From NCBI RefSeq assembly GCF_024178165.1, contig NZ_JAMZIE010000002.1, positions 434,001 to 498,000 of the forward strand: a DNA stretch of 64,000 bases, read 5' to 3'. Positions 45,474 to 50,124 of the stretch are shown here, piece by piece. The position numbers were made by a program, and so were the translations under genes. Source of the stretch: Halohasta salina (GTDB lineage Archaea > Halobacteriota > Halobacteria > Halobacteriales > Haloferacaceae). Every line of letters starts with the position of its first letter. The stretch's first letter is position 1. The notes under the pieces were generated by a model. It saw only the letters and a list, made by a program, of their open reading frames with translations, made no database searches and had not been told where the DNA came from.

Positions 45474-46139
45474 GCGGGTGTCGACGGCCCGCTGGACGAC
45501 GTCTTTGGCAGCCAGTTCATCCTCGGAAGGCCCGACGACTGCGTATACAACCGACACGTCTGCCTCGGGCGGCTGCTGGATCGCAACTGGGTGCGACGAT
45601 CTAGATCCCAGACGATTGATCTCGAGCCACCAGTTTCGTGGTGTCGATACCACGACCATTAATTCGATATTCTACAAACTATATCCCGAATAAGACCCAG
45701 ATAGAGTCACTAGTTGTGCTATTTGAAACTCAAAATCTGTATTTGTACCACTATTAGCGCGGTTGTGTAAGTTTTATATACGCGTGGCTGTTTGGTAGTG
45801 GTAATGAGTGTCAAGGGGGTGTCGGTCTGAAGTACGGCTATATAATGGGTCGACGCTGGCTCAGTTGCCACCGGTCGACCCACAGACTGCTCGGTTGACT
45901 CGTTCAGCGTTCAGCCCAAGGATTTACTCTCTGCTTGGGTACTGCCTTAACAGTCCGACTGGCCGAATCGAAGCCGCTCACTGCGGCTTCGTGATCCACC
46001 GTTCTCGCGTTCACCACTCGCCGTGTACAATCAAGAGACTGTCCCGAGAGAACCCCGATTCCTCGTCGGCGTCTGCGACTGAGAGAGCGACTGTCCACGT
46101 CGGGACGGCGTACTCAAGCCTTCCTCGACCGACGGACGG
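45474..46139. other. 666-base intergenic region, AT-richer, with a perfect hairpin
   Basis: Base composition drops in A+T-rich runs around 45650-45800 and contains TATA-like elements (TTTTATATAC near 45773, CTATATAA near 45839) without a convincing gene behind them. A 9-bp hairpin lies at 45969-45991. A minus-strand frame at its left edge (45475-45659) has protein-like composition but no stop until inside the transporter gene and is not called. Confidence 0.45.
45969..45991. repeat. Perfect 9-bp inverted repeat (hairpin)
   Basis: CGAAGCCGC, loop TCACT, GCGGCTTCG. No T-run follows. Could be a structure in an unseen RNA, a terminator or a remnant of a mobile element end. Confidence 0.55.
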
Positions 46140-46304
46140 TTAGTCTTCGGACGCAGAACCCTCGCGGCGAGCGAGCAAGATCCCGGCGATGATGAAAACG
46201 GCCCCGAGGACCAACAACCCTACCGTGAGTTCCCTGCCCGAAACGAATACGCCGGCTCCAATAGCACCCGTGCCAAGAATATGAAGGATAGCAGTTTGGT
46301 TCAC
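46140..46304 (-). CDS. Small two-helix membrane protein
   Basis: A 54-residue ORF from GTG 46304. It reads VNQTAILHILGTGAIGAGVF and continues with a second hydrophobic helix LLVLGAVFIIAGILLARREG, ending SASED. An in-frame stop lies nine codons upstream of the GTG, so the GTG is the only reasonable start. Hydrophobic pattern and acidic tail look real. Function unknown; it is divergent from the nitric oxide synthase gene. Confidence 0.55.
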   Translation of the reverse strand: MNQTAILHILGTGAIGAGVFVSGRELTVGLLVLGAVFIIAGILLARREGSASED

Positions 46305-46516
46305 AGAGACAGTACAGGGAGACTGGATTTAACGCCATTGGAAGGCACGTCTATGGTGGATACCGTACCAGCAGTCGCTGACTCCCGTCAGGATTCGGAT
46401 TCGGTGCCAGCCGTGATGCCGAAATCTCGCCGGATACACGTTCGGGCAGACGATGGAAAACACAAGATTTCCGGGATTCTCCGACGGTGTGGGGTAAAAA
46501 AGCTAAACTGATATTC

Positions 46517-47647
46517 ATGACCACCGAACAACTAGTCGTGAACGCTCCGCAGCCGAAGACAGGCAGACAGGAACGATACGAGGCTGCAGCCGAGTTCGTT
46601 CGCCAATGTTACAGCGAATGTGGTCGCGATGCTGCGATCGACGATCGTATCACGGATGTTTGGCATGCGATCGGCCAGACTGGACGCTATACCCACACGC
46701 CGATGGAGCTCGCACATGGTGCGAAAATGGCGTGGCGAAACAGCAATCGGTGTATCGGTCGACACTTCTGGGATCGCCTGCGAGTGCGTGACTGCCGGGA
46801 TGCGACCACCCCAACAGCAGTGTACGAAGCGTTAGTCGACCATATCACTGCTGCCACAAACGGGGGGAACATCCGTCCAACAATCTCCGTGTTTCCAGCG
46901 GCGATGCAGGACTCCCCACGAGTTCGGATTTGGAATACGCAACTAATCCGGTATGCTGGCTACGACACGGGGACAGGAATCGTCGGCGATCCTGACACTG
47001 CGGCGCTAACGAGATATTGTCAGTCCCGTGGGTGGGTGGGTGAAGGCACCCCGTTCGATCTGCTTCCGCTGGTGATCCAGGTCGGGGATCGAGAGCCGGA
47101 ACTGTTCGAACTCCCCGAAGAGACAGTAGTCGAGGTACCACTATCGCATCCGGAACACGAGTGGTTCGCCGATCTCGAACTACAGTGGTATGCTGTCCCG
47201 ATCGTGTCCGATATGATATTGGAAATCGGCGGGCTCCGATATCCTGCTGCGCCGTTCAATGGCTGGTATATGGGCACCGAGATCGGCAGTCGAGATCTCG
47301 GGGATCGAGACCGGTACGACAAACTCCCGGAGATCGGTGAGCGACTCGGGTTCGAGACGACGACCGATAGATCGCTATGGAAAGACCGGGCGCTCACAGC
47401 ACTCAACCGCGCCGTTTTGCACTCGTTCGATCGCCACGGGGTTCGAATCGTCGACCACCACACGGCTGCCGATCAGTTCGAGCGGTTCGAACACGAAGAA
47501 CGAGCCGCAGGGCGTTCGGTGACCGGCGATCGATCGTGGCTGCTCCCGCCGAACGCCTCGTCGACGACACACGTTTTTCATACCGAGTACGACGAGACGG
47601 TTCGGACGCCGAATTTCTTTTATCGGGATGCATCGTTGCCGAACTGA
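46517..47647 (+). CDS. nos: Nitric oxide synthase oxygenase (bacterial-type NOS)
   Basis: A 376-residue NOS oxygenase, oxidising L-arginine to citrulline and NO at a cysteine-ligated heme. Seen: MAWRNSNRCIGRHFWDRL with heme ligand Cys79, VFPAAMQDSPRVRIWNTQLI, FNGWYMGTEIGSRDLG with the arginine-binding Glu at about 255, and WLLPPNASSTTHVFH near the pterin site. No reductase domain is attached, as in bacterial NOS, so electrons must come from other flavoproteins. Codon use and G+C are clearly lower than in neighbouring genes, suggesting transfer. A lone SdhA/FrdA-like flavoprotein follows 129 bases downstream. Confidence 0.93.
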   Translation: MTTEQLVVNAPQPKTGRQERYEAAAEFVRQCYSECGRDAAIDDRITDVWHAIGQTGRYTHTPMELAHGAKMAWRNSNRCIGRHFWDRLRVRDCRDATTPTAVYEALVDHITAATNGGNIRPTISVFPAAMQDSPRVRIWNTQLIRYAGYDTGTGIVGDPDTAALTRYCQSRGWVGEGTPFDLLPLVIQVGDREPELFELPEETVVEVPLSHPEHEWFADLELQWYAVPIVSDMILEIGGLRYPAAPFNGWYMGTEIGSRDLGDRDRYDKLPEIGERLGFETTTDRSLWKDRALTALNRAVLHSFDRHGVRIVDHHTAADQFERFEHEERAAGRSVTGDRSWLLPPNASSTTHVFHTEYDETVRTPNFFYRDASLPN

Positions 47648-47776
47648 GCAGGCGTATGCGGCGGGCCACTAGTCGTGCTTCCAGTCAGATAGCATAATAC
47701 CGTAACCAAACCGGTCTGCTCTCCTTGCGCGCGCACGCGCGAAGACCTCATAAGTCTCAAGCGTCTACTGTTCAGT

Positions 47777-49567
47777 ATGGAAAAAACGGGGGCGGTGACG
47801 ACTGACAGTTCGGCTGAGTACGACCGGATCGATGTCTCAGTGCTGGTCATCGGCGCAGGTGCTGCTGGCGCACGAAGTGCGATCACACTCGCCGAACAGG
47901 GTGTCGACGACATACTCGTCCTCGGCAAACGGAATCACGGCGATGCACATACGACGTGGGCGCGTGGTGGTATCAACGGTGCCCTCGGCACCCACGACCC
48001 CGAAGACAACTGGGCAGTTCACGCCGCCGATACGCTCAACGAGGGCCACTTTCTCAACGATCCCGAGAAAGTAGAAACGGTCGCCAAACAGATGCCCGAC
48101 CGTCTCCGCGAACTCGACGAGTGGGGCATGGAGTACTCGCGGACCGAGGACGGAGCGATCGACCAGCGGTACTTCGGCGCCCAGTCGTTCCGTCGCACCG
48201 CGTTCGCTGGCGATCATACCGGTGAATCGCTGCTCGATACGCTGGTCGACCGGGCCCAAGACCTCGAAATCCCGTACCGGGAGAACGTGATGATCACGAA
48301 GCTCCTCTCGGACGGCGAAGAGGTCCATGGAGCAGTAGGGTTCGATATGGATTCCGGCGACTTCGTGCTGTTCAACGCCGGAAACGTCGTGCTGGCTGCC
48401 GGTGGCTACGCGGCCATCTACAACCGCCATACCTCGCGTGACGACGAAAACAACGGTGACGGTCCCGCACTCGCCTACGATGCCGGCGCGTCGCTGATGG
48501 ACATGGAGTTCGTCCAGTTCCACCCGACCGGGATGGCAGTAGACGACTCAGATCCCGACTGGGAGCCGTGGAGCGGTCGACTCGTCACCGAAGCGGTCCG
48601 CGGCGAGGGTGGTCGACTGTACAACAGCGAGGGAGAGCGGTTCATGGAGCGCTACTCGCCGGACCAGATGGAACTCGATGCGCGGGACGTCGTCGCCCGT
48701 GCAATCGCCCAAGAGATCGCGGAGGGTCGCGGGACCGACAACGGCGGCGTCTATCTCGACATCTCCCACCGTGATGCCGCGTTCATTCAGGAGCGTCTCC
48801 CGCGGATGTACGAGCGGTTCGACGACCTCGGTGTCGATATGGCTGCCGAACCGGTCGAAGTCGCCCCGACGTCCCACTACGGCATGGGCGGAGTCGCCGT
48901 AGACGAGTACGGAGAGACTGACGTGGAGGGACTGTTTGCCATCGGCGAGACGATGGCTGGCGTCCACGGGGCGAACCGCCTCGGGGGGAACTCGCTGGCC
49001 GAGACGGTTGCCTTCGGTGCGGTCACCGGCGACCGCCTCGTAGACCGGGTCGACGGGCCGGGTGCGGTCCCGGCCGACCTCGTCGACGAAGTCGCCGAAC
49101 CCCATTTCGCGGCCCTTGATGCGATGGCCTCCCGTGAGGGGACCTACGACGTCATGGAGGTCGTCGCCGAACTCCAAGAGCTGATGTGGGACCACGCGGG
49201 GATCCTCAGAGACGAGTCGACGCTACAGGCTGGCCTCCAGCGGCTGTCGGAGCTCCGCGAGCAGAGTGCCGATATGGACGTCGGGCCGATCACGAGCGAC
49301 TCCTTCGAGTTCGCCGTCGACATCGGCTTCATGCTGACGGCTGCGGAAGCGGTACTCCGCGGCGCAGCCGAACGCGACGAGTCACGTGGGGCCCACTACC
49401 GGACGGACTACCCCGAGACCGATCCGGAGTGGCAACGAAACATCCTCTTCGAGGACTCCGACATCGGTGGGATGCGGACCGATACCGCTCCGGTTGGCAC
49501 GCCGAGTGACGCTGTGCAGACTGCCCTCGATGAGGGCCACGAACTCGATTACCACCAACTAGAGTGA
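47777..49567 (+). CDS. Stand-alone SdhA/FrdA-like FAD flavoprotein
   Basis: A 596-residue flavoprotein of the succinate dehydrogenase/fumarate reductase/L-aspartate oxidase family. FAD site VLVIGAGAAGARSAITLAEQ near residue 21; AHTTWARGGINGAL with His58 where SdhA proteins bind FAD covalently; FVQFHPTGM, TEAVRGEGGRLYN, SHYGMGGVAVDEYGETDVEG and ANRLGGNSLAETV form the active site. No iron-sulfur or membrane subunit gene is adjacent, and no nad genes, so the partner and reaction are unclear. An L-aspartate oxidase role is less likely because of the SdhA-type motifs. It lies in the NOS segment. Confidence 0.8.
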   Translation: MEKTGAVTTDSSAEYDRIDVSVLVIGAGAAGARSAITLAEQGVDDILVLGKRNHGDAHTTWARGGINGALGTHDPEDNWAVHAADTLNEGHFLNDPEKVETVAKQMPDRLRELDEWGMEYSRTEDGAIDQRYFGAQSFRRTAFAGDHTGESLLDTLVDRAQDLEIPYRENVMITKLLSDGEEVHGAVGFDMDSGDFVLFNAGNVVLAAGGYAAIYNRHTSRDDENNGDGPALAYDAGASLMDMEFVQFHPTGMAVDDSDPDWEPWSGRLVTEAVRGEGGRLYNSEGERFMERYSPDQMELDARDVVARAIAQEIAEGRGTDNGGVYLDISHRDAAFIQERLPRMYERFDDLGVDMAAEPVEVAPTSHYGMGGVAVDEYGETDVEGLFAIGETMAGVHGANRLGGNSLAETVAFGAVTGDRLVDRVDGPGAVPADLVDEVAEPHFAALDAMASREGTYDVMEVVAELQELMWDHAGILRDESTLQAGLQRLSELREQSADMDVGPITSDSFEFAVDIGFMLTAAEAVLRGAAERDESRGAHYRTDYPETDPEWQRNILFEDSDIGGMRTDTAPVGTPSDAVQTALDEGHELDYHQLE

Positions 49568-49647
49568 GGCCGTTCCGAACGTGAGGTAGATAACGGCCCA
49601 CCGTTGTCTGGCGGTTTTGTCTACTTCGCGCGACGTATGGACCGTAG

Positions 49648-49669
49648 TGGGTTGGAGCGGATTCGGACC
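49648..49669. repeat. Degraded 22-bp copy of the tRNA-Val 3' end
   Basis: Bases 49648-49669 match 50050-50071 with two mismatches. This is the more decayed of two tail copies. Confidence 0.6.
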
Positions 49670-49741
49670 CCAATTGCAAGCCACTGCGTAGATAGAAACC
49701 AGTGTAGTAAGTGATTTGACGCTCCTCACAAAGAGTCTCGT

Positions 49742-49825
49742 ATGAATTGGCTGTTATTGGCGGCTGCAGTGGCTGTCAACGTCGTTGTCTGGATCTCACT
49801 GTTGTATCTGTTTTTTACGAACTGA
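49742..49825 (+). CDS. Possible 27-residue single-helix membrane peptide
   Basis: Starts MNWLLLAAAVAVNVVVWISL and ends LFFTN, a single hydrophobic helix of transmembrane length. Short membrane peptides of this kind exist in haloarchaea, but at this size chance cannot be excluded and no clear promoter is visible. Confidence 0.35.
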   Translation: MNWLLLAAAVAVNVVVWISLLYLFFTN

Positions 49826-49914
49826 GACGACCCAACCGGTTTCAGTGCAGCGGTTAGTTGCTATCTGTCGACGACAGACCCCACAGTCGTATTCGGATCC
49901 GCCGAAATCAAAAC

Positions 49915-49937
49915 ATGGGTTGGGGCGGATTCGCACC
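49915..49937. repeat. 23-bp copy of the tRNA-Val 3' end with inverted repeat
   Basis: Bases 49915-49937 match 50049-50071 with one mismatch. The copy is followed about 40 bases on by CGAATCCGCC, the inverse of GGCGGATTCG inside the copy, so the fragment can fold back on itself. It is the main candidate for an old attachment site. Confidence 0.75.
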
Positions 49938-50049
49938 TCAGTCGCTCTCTTCGATCGCTCCCTGCTTCGAATCCGCCAGTCAACCGAACAGACGGCACCG
50001 ACTCCTCGCTCCGCATACGCTCCGCTCGTCGTTGTGATGCCGTCAGAAA

Positions 50050-50124
50050 TGGGTTGGGGCGGATTCGAACCGCCGGCCTGCTCCGTGTGAAGGAGCCGTC
50101 ATAACCTGGCTAGACCACCAACCC
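50050..50124 (-). tRNA. tRNA-Val (anticodon CAC)
   Basis: On the minus strand a complete cloverleaf: acceptor GGGTTGG/CCAACCC with discriminator A, D arm GTC...GAC, anticodon stem GCTCC/GGAGC with loop TTCACAC (anticodon CAC, valine), T stem GGCGG/CCGCC with TTCGAAT loop. CCA is not encoded. It marks the right border of the NOS segment. Confidence 0.95.

Follow-up and report, generated by a model that had tools for sequence, protein, structure and literature searches.

In Halohasta salina, a gene for a stand-alone nitric oxide synthase (NOS) oxygenase and a gene for a solitary complex II-type flavoprotein lie side by side next to a tRNA-Val gene (Table 1). With a probability of about 0.85, this segment is a slot of variable content next to the tRNA, where genes of unrelated function have accreted as ordinary cargo. 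Both genes were probably acquired horizontally, within the haloarchaea, as suggested by their composition, by the trees and by their absence from the slot of two congeners. The window considered here is a stretch of 64,000 nucleotides of the genome. A previous sequence-only reading of it had proposed that the two genes form a transferred module, in which the flavoprotein might feed or consume NO-related redox equivalents. Composition, trees and congeners' slots argue for the transfer of both genes; the idea of a module is not supported, and the pair is not conserved.

Table 1. Features of the NOS-flavoprotein segment and its surroundings (positions in the window).
Feature	Position	Strand	Remarks
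sppA-like signal peptide peptidase gene, decayed fragment	45526..45602	+	77 bp
Small membrane-protein-like ORF	46140..46304	-	54 aa, GTG start
NOS oxygenase, stand-alone	46517..47647	+	376 aa; Pfam PF02898 (NO_synthase)
Solitary complex-II-type FAD protein (fumarate reductase/succinate dehydrogenase flavoprotein-like)	47777..49567	+	596 aa
tRNA-Val 3'-end copy	49648..49669	+	2 mismatches in 22
Hydrophobic ORF (MNWLLLAAAVAVNVVVWISLLYLFFTN)	49742..49825	+	27 aa; between two tRNA-end repeats
Segment with the 49916 repeat	49911..50049		also in congener G068
tRNA-Val 3'-end copy	49916..49937	+	1 mismatch in 22
tRNA-Val (cac), intact	50050..50124	-	ARAGORN

The two genes and their products

The NOS protein matches the Pfam NO_synthase profile at 521.7 bits (cut-off 22.7; E 1.2e-156), the domain being full-length (profile positions 4-359 of 362). 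The ORF stops after this domain, which is the only one found, and no reductase domain is fused to it. Cys79 (NSNRCIGR) and Glu255 (GTEIG), which we take to be the heme-ligand cysteine and the substrate glutamate, are invariant in 19 haloarchaeal NOS and align with the NOS of the PDB. By its domain and residues, the protein is an intact stand-alone (type I) NOS oxygenase. Among PDB matches (E 1e-134), the Bacillus and Geobacillus oxygenases (2flq, 4d3u; E ~1e-134) align with it nearly end to end but belong to a Firmicutes clade apart from the haloarchaeal one. Reviews describe most bacterial NOS as a single oxygenase domain working with cellular reducing equivalents, and give Natronomonas pharaonis as an archaeal case (Orsini et al., 2020, as cited in PMC9311577 and PMC9500659). 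As described there, that enzyme is likewise a stand-alone oxygenase of a haloarchaeon, in another organism; the likeness is one of description. The H. salina enzyme would most likely make NO and citrulline from L-arginine and, by analogy with stand-alone bacterial NOS, would rely for electrons on general reductases of the cell whose genes lie elsewhere.

At the NO-release gate, the H. salina enzyme has Val230. This position is Ile in most bacterial NOS, which slows NO release (PMC6120233, PMC6104048). Val occurs there in 27 of 31 haloarchaeal NOS and also in 9 of the 24 Firmicutes enzymes sampled, so that it cannot serve as a haloarchaeal hallmark.

The flavoprotein combines the Pfam domains FAD_binding_2 (E 6e-94) and Succ_DH_flav_C (E 1.7e-23) and has SdhA matches in the PDB. 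Its best NCBIfam profile is TfrA, subunit A of thiol:fumarate reductase (550.8 bits, equivalog cut-off 718); it also scores below the cut-off for L-aspartate oxidase NadB (TIGR00551; 388.7 bits against 452.75) and below every other curated equivalog cut-off shown. Residues H58, H249, R303, H367 and R401, aligned with SdhA, are invariant in five haloarchaeal orthologues and presumably include the FAD-attachment histidine and the His/Arg residues of the dicarboxylate site. These domains and residues place the protein in the complex II flavoprotein superfamily, and the conservation of the two sites suggests chemistry of the fumarate/succinate type rather than an NAD(P)H reductase. The domain architecture and alignable active-site motifs are common to TfrA and SdhA/FrdA; unlike these, the H. 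salina protein falls below the curated cut-offs and has no adjoining partner subunit. Its neighbourhood contains no genes for the Fe-S or membrane-anchor subunits expected of an SDH/FRD complex. Thus, a NOS beside an SdhA/FrdA-like flavoprotein without partner subunits, close to tRNA-Val, as had been read from the sequence, is borne out by Pfam, the gene neighbourhood and ARAGORN. Most likely, the protein would carry its FAD covalently and act by itself as an oxidoreductase of the fumarate/succinate type.

The unusual composition that had been ascribed to the NOS gene is also found: among the 47 window genes longer than 400 bp, whose median GC3 is 0.865, it ranks last (0.626), just below the flavoprotein gene (0.765).

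The slot beside tRNA-Val

In the window, the slot contains the sppA-like fragment, the small membrane-protein ORF, NOS and the flavoprotein gene. The fragment, 87% identical to a gene region at G000:C25:65789-65865 (translations compared), is putatively assigned by inspection of the sequence. In the congener G283, the slot contains genes for a TAXI-type receptor (Pfam NMT1_3), a DUF1850 protein, a TRAP permease (DctM) and a D-glutamate cyclase-like protein. In G068, a transporter gene, tRNA-Val and an adenosyltransferase gene lie close together, and no large gene was called in the space from the transporter to the tRNA; judging from its sequence, this spacer may hold a degraded end of the glutamate-cyclase-like gene, which G283 has in intact form. 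Both NOS and the flavoprotein are absent from the slot in these two congeners. With the present cargo in one genome, a TRAP-TAXI cluster in another and almost nothing in a third, the slot is variable within the genus.

The tRNA 3'-end sequence occurs at 49648, 49916 and 50050, for a chance expectation of 0.06. The attachment-like repeats of the sequence-only reading are therefore real; they do not, however, bracket the genes, all three copies lying to the right of both NOS and the flavoprotein gene, and no fourth copy was found to the left of NOS. The repeat at 49648 is specific to the window among the congeners compared. That at 49916 belongs to a segment also present in G068, which has neither gene there; this repeat is consequently not evidence for the arrival of NOS. 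A single integrated element, marked by the repeats, was considered as the carrier of both genes into tRNA-Val, since tyrosine-recombinase elements leave such matches to the tRNA 3' end. Given cargo without repeats on both sides, a repeat shared with a congener devoid of NOS, and no integrase gene or remnant among the genes called in the segment, this origin is improbable. As for the 27-aa ORF between the repeats, no homologue was found in the fetched loci.

Distribution and phylogeny

NOS is encoded in 23 of the 391 class genomes sampled (15 of 86 genera) and in 5 of 170 genomes at the family level, among which is one of the three congeners (G391). NOS was already known in haloarchaea, where it is uncommon rather than exceptional, which corrects the rarity presumed for archaea in the sequence-only reading. 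In the unrooted tree, with Firmicutes as its only bacterial phylum, the 31 haloarchaeal NOS group without exception in a single clade opposite 24 Firmicutes enzymes (support 100/100). The window NOS groups with those of Halonotius pteroides, A07HR60, G135 and G301 (100/100), whereas that of the congener G391 falls in another subclade; the latter sequence is less certain because the G391 genome is 83% complete with 6% contamination. This placement and the patchy distribution fit a gene passed between haloarchaea, not one that came recently from bacteria. Vertical descent of NOS, which would have spoken against transfer, is not what the tree shows.

The nearest match of the genome scan, the NOS of Halonotius pteroides (76% identity; L193/L100), has different neighbours from those in the window. 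At this locus and that of G135 (L065), a thioredoxin-reductase-like FAD protein, a DUF1684 protein and a TrmB-type regulator are found in common, and all are missing from the window. The FAD protein could be a candidate NOS reductase. A reductase conserved beside NOS across all haloarchaeal lineages was not found, synteny being observed at the lineage level only. Among archaea, NOS lies on a plasmid only in Natribaculum. Three IMG/VR contigs of 124-165 kb (L245, L246 and L247) encode NOS relatives with 43-51% identity; few neighbours of the L245 gene match PHROGs, so that these contigs are only putatively viral.

The flavoprotein is present in 148 of the 391 class genomes (match at E 1e-120 or better); its family is a widespread haloarchaeal accessory enzyme, also found without NOS. 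The three congeners G068, G283 and G391 carry a version 64-69% identical to the window copy. These form a clade of their own (100/100), with the window copy outside, adjoining an f3-dominated group with modest support (88/76). In both trees, the placement of the window copy is non-vertical. In G068 and G283, the flavoprotein gene is flanked by a Pus10-like/RNase HII pair and, opposite, by ABC transporter genes; the H. salina genome has other genes at this locus. The simplest account would be that the inherited copy was lost and another one acquired. A weak match at G000:C11:118283 was considered as a remnant of the vertical copy and rejected, as it is not at the congeners' locus.

Adjacency without a conserved pair

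NOS loci, each with at most 10 kb of flanking sequence, were collected from 22 other class genomes, from a family search (three) and from a set of named archaeal loci (L100-L108, L111); the few contigs that end sooner are less informative. Among these loci, the flavoprotein is found within the flank only in G036, at ~4.2 kb from NOS, with genes of the FAA-hydrolase, metallo-beta-lactamase and uracil-DNA-glycosylase families in between. Since the NOS of G036 falls in another subclade, its proximity to the flavoprotein was not inherited together with that seen in the window. At the genome level, co-occurrence is mildly enriched, the flavoprotein being present in 14 of 23 NOS-positive and 134 of 368 NOS-negative genomes (Fisher p 0.026, uncorrected for relatedness). 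In the nine NOS genomes without it at the 1e-120 threshold, a retest gives matches of ~40-46%, the ordinary SdhA level. The flavoprotein is thus common without NOS, at many loci and not at one conserved locus as had been envisaged, and a conserved NOS-flavoprotein pair is rejected. The family of the 54-aa membrane-protein ORF, which adjoins the flavoprotein gene in G036 and G110, was considered as a third gene of a module and rejected in turn; it occurs in 58 of the 391 genomes, mostly apart from the flavoprotein where both coordinates are listed.

These data bear on whether the flavoprotein serves NOS as an electron donor or is itself a consumer of NO-related equivalents. Adjacency, the weak co-occurrence excess and G036 would favor such a functional module. 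The widespread occurrence of the flavoprotein without NOS, the NOS genomes lacking it, the separate subclade of the G036 enzyme, and the complex II-type character of a protein that keeps succinate/fumarate-type motifs, with no flavodoxin or NADPH-reductase family of Pfam or NCBIfam fitting it, make this very unlikely, and the proposed redox partnership is unsupported. It is even less probable that such a partner, as electron donor or NO-linked protein, moves with haloarchaeal NOS as a module.

The accretion of unrelated cargo may also have taken the form of a single transfer, whose unsampled donor already had the two genes as neighbours, functionally unlinked. The genes are on the same strand, 129 bp apart, with the two lowest GC3 values, and a NOS of the window type is accompanied by a related flavoprotein in the genomes of Halonotius pteroides and G301. 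However, these two genomes have them on separate contigs, the GC3 values of the window genes are unequal (0.63 vs 0.77), and the nearest relatives differ between the trees, Halonotius for NOS and the f3-dominated group for the flavoprotein. Such a joint arrival is possible but doubtful. Accretion is the reading retained, in which a haloarchaeal-type NOS and a solitary flavoprotein would have come from other haloarchaea, together or one after the other, to lie side by side. It should be noted that the mild co-occurrence excess and G036, with both genes in ~4 kb, count against it, as do the adjoining compositional outliers, which are also expected from the joint transfer of a functional pair, and the lack of an integrase in the segment and of repeats that bracket the two genes.

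If a partnership did exist, the flavoprotein would represent a new kind of electron donor to NOS, the source of electrons being an open question for stand-alone NOS. Function should not be read from adjacency in variable slots bordered by a tRNA. Overall, the segment documents the movement of NOS between haloarchaeal lineages, which hold it patchily and whose enzymes form a single clade, distinct from those of the Firmicutes that were sampled.
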